A stretch of DNA of 64,000 bases from Pedobacter sp. SYSU D00535 (GTDB taxonomy: Bacteria; Bacteroidota; Bacteroidia; Sphingobacteriales; Sphingobacteriaceae): the NCBI RefSeq assembly GCF_017355855.1, contig NZ_JAFEWD010000001.1, forward strand, positions 496,001 to 560,000. The letters run 5' to 3'. Position 1 is the first letter of the stretch. Each line of letters opens with the position of its first letter. A program made the translations under genes and the position numbers. Of this stretch, positions 28,017 to 31,930 are shown piece by piece. Under the pieces are notes generated by a model. That model saw only the letters and a list, made by a program, of their open reading frames with translations. It did not search any database and had not been told where the DNA came from.

Positions 28017-28799
28017 TTAAGCGACTTTTCTTAATGGTTGTTTGTTGGGCGAATTATAAACCAAGTTCGCTTTCTCTTTAATCAGAAGATAAACAAATAC
28101 GGGACCGAAGTACAGATAACGTTTCCATAGACGCTTCGGCTCCTTTACAAGTCGTCCAAGCCATTCCATACCCATATTGATCCATATCTTTCCTGGTCGT
28201 TCTACCGTTCCAGCATAAAAGTCGAACACGGCGCCGATAGAGGTGATGATCTTAGTGTCTAGCTGAGATTTATGCGTATGAGCCCACTTCTCCTGTTTAG
28301 GGGCAGTCATGCCAACAAAAAGAACATCGGGCTTGAAGGCATTTACAGCATCAATCATCTGCTGATCATCCTCTTTCGAGAATTCCGGCTTATAGGGAGG
28401 CGAGTAAGTGCCAACCTTCACGTTGGGATATTCCTCCGCGATTCTTTCGCGAATTTTATTAAGCGTGGATTCAGAAGAACCAAGATAAAAACAAGACCCT
28501 CCCTCACGATTTAACTTTTCCAGTAAGTGCTGATGCAAATCTGCTCCAGCTATTTTCTTTATAGTTTTTCCGGTAAGTAATTTTATAGCAGCAACAATTC
28601 CTACCCCATCAGGTAAAAGCACGTCAGACTCCATCAATGCCTTTTTAAAGCCTTGATCCTGACGAGTGACGATGTATGAATATTGATTTATAGTATTAAT
28701 CAATATTTTAGACTTTGATCCCAGTTTTTCCAAGGGTGATGTAAAAATGGGAAATCCTAATAAATCAGTTTTTTCATGAGTAGATAGTTCATAGTTCAT
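28017..28799 (-). CDS. WecB/TagA/CpsF family glycosyltransferase
   Basis: The 260-residue protein belongs to the GT26 family that transfers N-acetylmannosaminuronic acid or similar sugars to lipid-linked intermediates. Seen are SDVLLPDGVGIVAAIKLL near residue 65, AGADLHQHLLEKL, FYLGSSESTLNKIRERI, and PDVLFVGMTAPKQEKWAH with the conserved PKQE. The C-terminal block RPGKIWINMGMEWLGRL is typical. It is one of the later glycosyltransferases of the cluster. The substrate is not readable. Confidence 0.9.
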   Translation of the reverse strand: MNYELSTHEKTDLLGFPIFTSPLEKLGSKSKILINTINQYSYIVTRQDQGFKKALMESDVLLPDGVGIVAAIKLLTGKTIKKIAGADLHQHLLEKLNREGGSCFYLGSSESTLNKIRERIAEEYPNVKVGTYSPPYKPEFSKEDDQQMIDAVNAFKPDVLFVGMTAPKQEKWAHTHKSQLDTKIITSIGAVFDFYAGTVERPGKIWINMGMEWLGRLVKEPKRLWKRYLYFGPVFVYLLIKEKANLVYNSPNKQPLRKVA

Positions 28800-28971: not shown

Positions 28972-30606
28972 TTAGCTAATTCCTAGAGCAACTGCCGGGG
29001 CAGTTAACCGGCTGTAAATACCCAGCAACTCCTTGCGGTTTTTCTCCGGTGAATACAGTTGCTGATAGGCATTTACACAATTGTTCCGCATTTCTTTCTT
29101 TCTCCAGGTCTCCACTCCTCTCCATTCGTTAAGCCTTCTTTTTAAGTCAGACACGTCCCCAGGTTCAAAATGCATGCCATTGACGCCATCTTCAATTAAA
29201 AAAGCTGCCGAACCAATTTTAGAGGCGATAACTGGAGTGCCTGCGGCGAAGGATTCTATAATAGTAAGACCAAAAGTTTCGTACCAGACCGATGGAAAAA
29301 CCAGTGCTGTAGCTTTTTTTAACTCGGTGTAAATCTTTTCTTTGCCTTGAAAGCCAAGGTACTCTATATGGCTATACCTGTCGCAATATGACTCGACAAG
29401 CTCCTTAAGCGGCCCTGTTCCAATCAGTCGAAGATGGAAACCTGTTTCTGCAAATGCTTCAAGAAGCACACGTACTCCTTTCTCTTCAGATAATCGTCCA
29501 ATAAACAGGAAAATGTCACCTGGAACAAACTGTTCTTGGAGGAAAACAGCATTTGTAAAGTTTGGCTTTATCACAAACTTATTGGCTGGGATAGCTAGCC
29601 TGCTTTGTTCCAATACCTCTTTGGTGTGAGAAGACAGCAAAATAAATCTGTCAATGATATCCCAGGTCCCCAACTTTCTATTCAACCAAATACTGAAACT
29701 CACCCAAAAAGTAAGAACCTTTGAATTGTTATAAACACCCTTAAATACCGCATCCCAGGGAAAAGCCCGTTTTAGGCTCTCTAGGTAGAGCTGACCGTTA
29801 TGAAAGAGAGTAGCTGAGGGGCAGAGTAACCGATAGTTATGAAGCGTGTGTACCACCGGTACCCGGGCTATTTTTGCAGCCCAAAAAACAGATGGCGAAG
29901 CTGCAAACAACCAGTTGTGTACATGCAGAACCTCTATTTTCTCTTTTTTTAGCCAACTGTAAACCCGAGGCCACAGTTCCTGAAAGTCGTTGAAAATCTT
30001 ATTGATATTGGCAACGCTCGCCAGGAAGAACTCTCCCATATGATAAGCCGGAATTTCGTTCACCGGTTGCCCCAACAATTCTTCATACACTGTTTTCATA
30101 TCCTTCCTGCTGAGTCCGTGCACAACGTGGTCTTCGGGAAAGTCCATCTCAAATGAGAGAAAACCATTTTCTGCAGCTTTTGCAAAAAGTTTATCAGCAG
30201 GTTTTAGGAAAATACAATCCGAGTCAAGAATGAGGTATTGGTCTTCCGGGTTCTTATTATTTCTGGCAATGTATTCCAAGATCGAAAATTCGTAGAACTG
30301 ATTTTGAAACATTCCAAAATAACCCTTCGGTGTTCGGTACTTGAAGTCCGTGCGGATCACCTTCACTCCCAAATCGTCAAGGATTTGACTTACATGTTTT
30401 CCATCAACAACCGGTAGTGTTTTTGCGTTCGTAAACAATAAATGTTTTTCATGACGGTTAAAGCGTTTACTCGTGATAAAGAATACAATCAGACAACGCC
30501 AGTAAATATTCTGATGACTCTGACTTGAAGACTTCTTTCCGGATTGAGGGAAATAGCTTTCTTCGCCTTTCTCATCAACACAAAGCCAGGTACAAATGTG
30601 ATTCAT
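28972..30606 (-). CDS. Chimeric glycosyltransferase: GT-A-like N-half joined to truncated GT4
   Basis: The 544 residues contain two unrelated parts. Residues 1 to about 210 look like a nucleotide-diphosphosugar (GT-A) type protein with a DxD motif in YLILDSDCIFLKP (Asp128/Asp130). Residues about 218-544 are a GT4 (GT-B) glycosyltransferase with LHVHNWLFAASPSV, TLHNYRLLCPS, FIGRLSEEKGVRVLLEAF and SVWYETFGLTIIESFAAG. GT4 proteins normally begin with some 70-90 residues of their N-terminal Rossmann fold; here the HVHNW block follows the first part directly, so that segment seems lost. The joint lies near 29,940-29,975. The frame is open through it. Activity is uncertain. Confidence 0.75.
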   Translation of the reverse strand: MNHICTWLCVDEKGEESYFPQSGKKSSSQSHQNIYWRCLIVFFITSKRFNRHEKHLLFTNAKTLPVVDGKHVSQILDDLGVKVIRTDFKYRTPKGYFGMFQNQFYEFSILEYIARNNKNPEDQYLILDSDCIFLKPADKLFAKAAENGFLSFEMDFPEDHVVHGLSRKDMKTVYEELLGQPVNEIPAYHMGEFFLASVANINKIFNDFQELWPRVYSWLKKEKIEVLHVHNWLFAASPSVFWAAKIARVPVVHTLHNYRLLCPSATLFHNGQLYLESLKRAFPWDAVFKGVYNNSKVLTFWVSFSIWLNRKLGTWDIIDRFILLSSHTKEVLEQSRLAIPANKFVIKPNFTNAVFLQEQFVPGDIFLFIGRLSEEKGVRVLLEAFAETGFHLRLIGTGPLKELVESYCDRYSHIEYLGFQGKEKIYTELKKATALVFPSVWYETFGLTIIESFAAGTPVIASKIGSAAFLIEDGVNGMHFEPGDVSDLKRRLNEWRGVETWRKKEMRNNCVNAYQQLYSPEKNRKELLGIYSRLTAPAVALGIS

Positions 30607-30643: not shown

Positions 30644-31930
30644 TCAGGTAACAAATTTTTCAGGCTCTTCTATTTTGCCTGATATAAAGGTGCCGCGGTA
30701 ACGATGTGTTGATTCCAGGTAGAACAAGCACATGCCCACATGGCCCCAAAACATTAGTGTTGGAACATAGTTCAGCGAAAACACTAGTCCGCAGATGCAA
30801 AAAGGCACCAGAATCAGGGATTCATCTGAAAGCTTGGATGAGAATGCTTTCAAGAGTATGTAGAATAAAAAGCCATACTTAAGAATAAGTCCAACCACTC
30901 CATGGTAGAATAGTATTTCAACAAAGCCCTGGTGAAAATGGTGTCCTGTTCCTTCGTCCCACCAGTCTACTAACGGGTTCTGCAAATCAAAACCTTCAAA
31001 ACCCCAGCCGAAGATGGGTTGTTGCGCGATGTATCCCCAGTATAGCAGTGATTGCTCGATCCGGAAATTACCTGTACTCCCCTCTTTCGATGGATTTAAA
31101 ATTTCACTAAATCGGTCGGCGAAATAATCGAGCAGGTTCGGGAAAGAATTGGCCACAATGAAGTAAGATCCCATAAGTACAACAACCGCGAGCACCAGAA
31201 TTTTGATAACATTAGGGATAGCATTCCGGCTGGTTCTGATCACCATGAAAAAGTAGATCACTGTTGCTACAATGGTACTGCTCCATACTGACCGGTGCTG
31301 ATGAATGAGGATGATCAAGAAACAAAACAAAAACAGCAGGAGCGACTTGAGGGTGCTTGTTCTGACAAACTGATTCAAATACCACAGGTAGGGTATAATA
31401 ATCATGAAGATAGAACTTGCGTGAATAATCCGCGTATCACCAGAATATGGACCTACGTTTAATTCAATCTCATACAGACTTACTGAAAACTGGTGACCAA
31501 ATAAGGCCATAAAAATCACGTAAGTGATGAGGTAAAACTTGGCAATCATTTCCAGCAGATCAGCACTGAGTTTGCGAAGTAACGACTTGATGAAAATGAC
31601 GTAAATGACGGGAAATATTACGGAGTAGATTGCGAACTGCTTAAAAGGAGTGTTATAGATAAAAACCGATTCGAGTACCAGCTTAACCATCAGGGCCATG
31701 AAAAGCCCTACGTACACCTTCTCCCGCGTTGTAAGGCTTCGAAGATCATACAGAACGAAGGCTAAGACCCCGATGCTCAACAATTTTACATAAAGCGTAG
31801 TAACCAGAGCGTTCTGAATAAAAAGCCATGAAAATGCCGGCTCTACTAATAAGTAACAGAAGAAGATGGTAAAAAACTCCTTCGTATATAGTTTGTAATT
31901 AAAAATTTGTACTGCTGCTCTCATCGTCAA
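30644..31930 (-). CDS. O-antigen ligase/polymerase-like protein (Wzy type)
   Basis: A 428-residue protein with about ten or more membrane helices and a large periplasmic loop containing GWGFEGFDLQNP and HHFHQGFVEILFYHG, the pattern of Wzy/WaaL-family proteins (near residues 300-340). In the Wzx/Wzy route it would join flipped repeat units into a chain. Together with the flippase, Wza and Wzc, it supports a Wzy-dependent polymer. Ligase and polymerase cannot be told apart by sequence alone; the context favours polymerase. Confidence 0.83.
   Translation of the reverse strand: MTMRAAVQIFNYKLYTKEFFTIFFCYLLVEPAFSWLFIQNALVTTLYVKLLSIGVLAFVLYDLRSLTTREKVYVGLFMALMVKLVLESVFIYNTPFKQFAIYSVIFPVIYVIFIKSLLRKLSADLLEMIAKFYLITYVIFMALFGHQFSVSLYEIELNVGPYSGDTRIIHASSIFMIIIPYLWYLNQFVRTSTLKSLLLFLFCFLIILIHQHRSVWSSTIVATVIYFFMVIRTSRNAIPNVIKILVLAVVVLMGSYFIVANSFPNLLDYFADRFSEILNPSKEGSTGNFRIEQSLLYWGYIAQQPIFGWGFEGFDLQNPLVDWWDEGTGHHFHQGFVEILFYHGVVGLILKYGFLFYILLKAFSSKLSDESLILVPFCICGLVFSLNYVPTLMFWGHVGMCLFYLESTHRYRGTFISGKIEEPEKFVT

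Follow-up and report, generated by a model that had tools for sequence, protein, structure and literature searches.

Is the long open frame in the exopolysaccharide cluster of Pedobacter sp. SYSU D00535 a two-domain glycosyltransferase of a new kind, or is it what a deletion, or an assembler, has left of two separate enzymes? It lies in the window (the whole stretch of 64,000 nucleotides analysed here) at 28,972–30,606 on the minus strand, and encodes 544 amino acids in a single uninterrupted frame, without stop or frameshift. An earlier note, made from the letters of the window, had described this unbroken frame as two joined glycosyltransferase halves; the open frame and the separate parents that we find for each half bear this out.

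The front part (residues 1–215; 29,962–30,606, minus strand) belongs to an uncharacterised GT-A-like family. The search with this half covered 399 genomes of the bacterial family and gave 16 matches besides the window's own genome; 15 of these have a full-length open frame for the front-half gene, with 63–71% identity to residues 1–215 of the fusion. The intact proteins read out in these genomes and in GTDB loci are 347–372 amino acids long, and the genera with this family of about 350 residues are Desertivirga, Pedobacter, Mucilaginibacter, Hymenobacter and Arcticibacter (L048–L058). The exception, G054, is matched weakly: the match covers no more than a short piece of the front half (L017), with two stops, near a short frame that resembles the start of UDP-galactopyranose mutase, and the polysaccharide cluster of this genome may be decaying too. 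The DxD motif claimed for this half is confirmed; it (DSD, residues 128–130; 30,217–30,225, minus strand) is invariant in the family alignment.

Pfam and NCBIfam gave no match for the front half, nor did Pfam for an intact relative; PHROGs gave weak matches only, and a PDB sequence search nothing credible. Despite this lack of a family-model match, the predicted fold of the family (L054:4001–5074 and relatives) is clearly GT-A. The intact D. arenae (G002) protein yields a confident structure prediction (pLDDT 82, pTM 0.85) that matches PDB GT-A enzymes over residues 1 to about 298, with Z about 15. Because the alignments of this confident model reach residue ~298, the GT-A fold does not end at residue 215; the fusion has the DSD motif, and the fold around it is seen on the predicted intact relative. 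Past the joint, the parent region contains 20 residues invariant across 20 relatives, among them NEEA (at 227 in G002 numbering) and WHLPxEK (WHLPAEK at 274), both absent from the fusion. The HxxGxxK motif of GT8 enzymes suggests, by analogy, that H275 of the latter block may be the third metal ligand. To the earlier note it can thus be added that the GT-A part is likewise shortened, with its C-terminal ~140 residues gone.

The back part (residues 216–544; 28,972–29,961, minus strand) is a GT4 glycosyltransferase. Pfam recognises GT4 only from residue ~210, with residues 1–219 unrecognised; the C-terminal Rossmann domain PF00534 scores 98.9 bits against a curated cut-off of 26.4, and the match to the N-domain profile PF13439 begins only at its position 59 of 170; the initial strands of the GT4 fold are therefore missing, as had been noticed from the sequence. 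Residues 216–544 match the body of a separate GT4 protein of ~395 amino acids in about 120 genomes, and it is the initial ~70 residues of this parent that the fusion lacks, including a Gly-rich loop, GGED, present in 32 of 32 GT4 relatives. Retained are the E(X)7E motif (ETFGLTIIE, residues 443–451; 29,254–29,280, minus strand), the GRLSEEKG stretch and the HTLHNY block. Three GT4 relatives (G005, G446 and G233; L087 and two further matches) have one internal stop each within the match, which suggests loss of the GT4 gene in other genomes.

The joint falls between P213 and Y216. The closest GT4 (L066, 50% identity) reads FIKCYSWLRRNKIKVLHVHNW and the window reads WPRVYSWLKKEKIEVLHVHNW; at the joint itself the former has FIKC followed by YSWLRRNKIKVLHVHNW, as against WPRV followed by YSWLKKEKIEVLHVHNW in the window, and front-half relatives have ELWPKLLERHA at the corresponding site. 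From this three-way comparison the switch was placed at codons 214–215 (about 29,962–29,967, minus strand), whose parent is uncertain; the position given earlier, 29,940–29,975, is thereby narrowed.

We examined the neighborhood of both parents in relatives. In all 15, a GT4 gene lies 1.5–3.8 kb 3′ of the front-half gene on the same contig and strand (spacing taken from coordinates), so that both halves occur as separate neighbouring genes. Six regions were read out, and in each wzy is followed by the GT-A-like gene, then two or three others, then GT4; other genes thus intervene in every one, and in four of the six TagA directly follows, or is fused to, GT4. The D. xinjiangensis (G001) and D. 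arenae (G002) regions have wzy, the GT-A-like gene, 2–3 further genes, GT4 and TagA. In the window the order is wzy, fusion, TagA, with both neighbours directly adjoining the fusion: a Wzy/O-antigen ligase-like gene (30,644–31,930, minus strand; PF04932), in relatives the upstream neighbour of the front parent, and a WecG/TagA/CpsF glycosyltransferase gene (28,017–28,799, minus strand; PF03808), which in several relatives is the next gene downstream of the GT4 parent. The genes neighbouring the fusion match orthologues of about equal length.

The fused layout was found in none of the relatives searched. A candidate second fused copy in L049/L050, which match query residues 1–253 in tblastn, was rejected, the front-half frames there being intact and separate. 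The window's own assembly was searched for an intact copy or the lost pieces; there was no close copy, and the glycosyltransferase-like matches that did appear were distant, with identities of 33% and 25%. A fusion of another kind was seen in two species of one genus (G041 and G021), where GT4 and WecG/TagA form one frame of 654–664 amino acids (L062:5100–7094, L063:11511–13475) with long matches to each of the two proteins; it may be a genuine two-enzyme fusion that the two species share.

The separate, same-strand parents in all 15 relatives strongly support the earlier proposal that neighbouring genes were joined by an in-frame deletion. The simplest explanation is an in-frame deletion of ~2.4–3.5 kb in the lineage of the window, between wzy and WecG/TagA of an exopolysaccharide cluster of the Wzx/Wzy type. 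Such a deletion would have joined codon ~214 of the GT-A-like gene to codon ~72 of the GT4 gene with the frame kept, taking out the 3′ end of the first gene, two or three intervening glycosyltransferase-like genes and the 5′ end of the second. It would be recent, its product would be catalytically dead in both halves, and the cluster would give the strain a polymer with a shorter repeat unit or none at all. We consider it highly probable that an in-frame deletion specific to this lineage produced the fusion, most likely leaving an inactive remnant.

That the fusion occurs only in this assembly among the genomes searched would also fit an assembly artefact, with both genes intact in the real genome and the intervening sequence skipped by the assembler. 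We regard this as improbable, however: no other contig carries the missing sequence, the region of the joint is single-copy, and the assembly, with 20 contigs, reaches a completeness of 99.89%. Moreover, with front-half relatives and the closest GT4 standing in for the undeleted parents, no repeat shared by the two sides and no notable microhomology appears at the joint. 

A real fusion might yet be a working enzyme, one that folds and still transfers sugar with at least one of its halves; the GT4 half would be the likelier one to be active, with the GT-A remnant replacing its lost strands. The open frame agrees with this, as do the three motifs kept in the GT4 half, and the invariant positions are undecayed in both halves: none of 31 and none of 19 family-invariant residues have been lost, which led us to reject decay by loss of conserved residues and bounds the changed residues at about 6% if unconstrained. 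This leaves a recent event or a product that is still in use; of these two readings, both compatible with the data, the structural losses favour the recent deletion. Since the deletion cuts both catalytic folds, taking NEEA and WHLPxEK from one and the first strands and the GGED loop from the other, the product is most likely an inactive chimera, and the working two-domain enzyme of new architecture that had been envisaged is not supported.

Structure prediction of the fusion bears on both sides of this question. The joint lies within one continuous predicted helix (198–221), which makes a folded chimera conceivable, but the model is poor over residues 129–222, mostly with pLDDT under 50. The front half had 3 alignment rows against 11, and with this shallower alignment the low confidence is not a clean control; alignments in which MAFFT had placed GT4 rows over the front half (A1, A4) were left out. 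When the fusion model is aligned to solved GT4 structures, the match mostly starts at model residue 204–224, a point well inside the target chains. Taken with a layout that no relative has, activity of the fused protein appears unlikely; that it is an active mixed GT-A/GT-B glycosyltransferase, with GT-A secondary structure replacing the first N-domain strands of GT4 through the shared helix, is more doubtful still, and we give it very little credence. The sequence and structure analyses yielded no positive evidence of activity.

Deletion remnants are commonplace; a chimera that works is conceivable but lacks support. As a remnant, the locus is a further example of a fast-changing surface-polysaccharide cluster that has lost glycosyltransferases. 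It also warns against reading an open, undecayed frame as evidence that the enzyme works; family-model annotation would label the fusion as GT4. For the question of how glycosyltransferase folds can recombine, the chimera would matter only if it were active. No report of this fusion was found in those parts of the literature that the search reached.

Comparison with known systems shows what each half retains. The intact front-half relative has a fold like that of GT8-type GT-A enzymes (glycogenin, LgtC) and the UGGT catalytic domain at 8–13% identity, whereas the front-half family has no sequence-family match and only part of the fold is left in the chimera. With its own family the fusion shares residues 1–215 and DSD, but not the last ~140 residues. 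With separate GT4s of Sphingobacteriaceae polysaccharide clusters (L066, L054, L057) it shares, at 42–50% identity, the C-terminal Rossmann domain and, from the HVHNW strand onward, the N-domain, but not the residues before that strand. Natural two-domain glycosyltransferases such as WbbM (PDB 6u4b, itself a fold match to the front-half family) carry two glycosyltransferase modules in one chain; WbbM-like enzymes keep two complete domains, whereas in the fusion both domains are cut.
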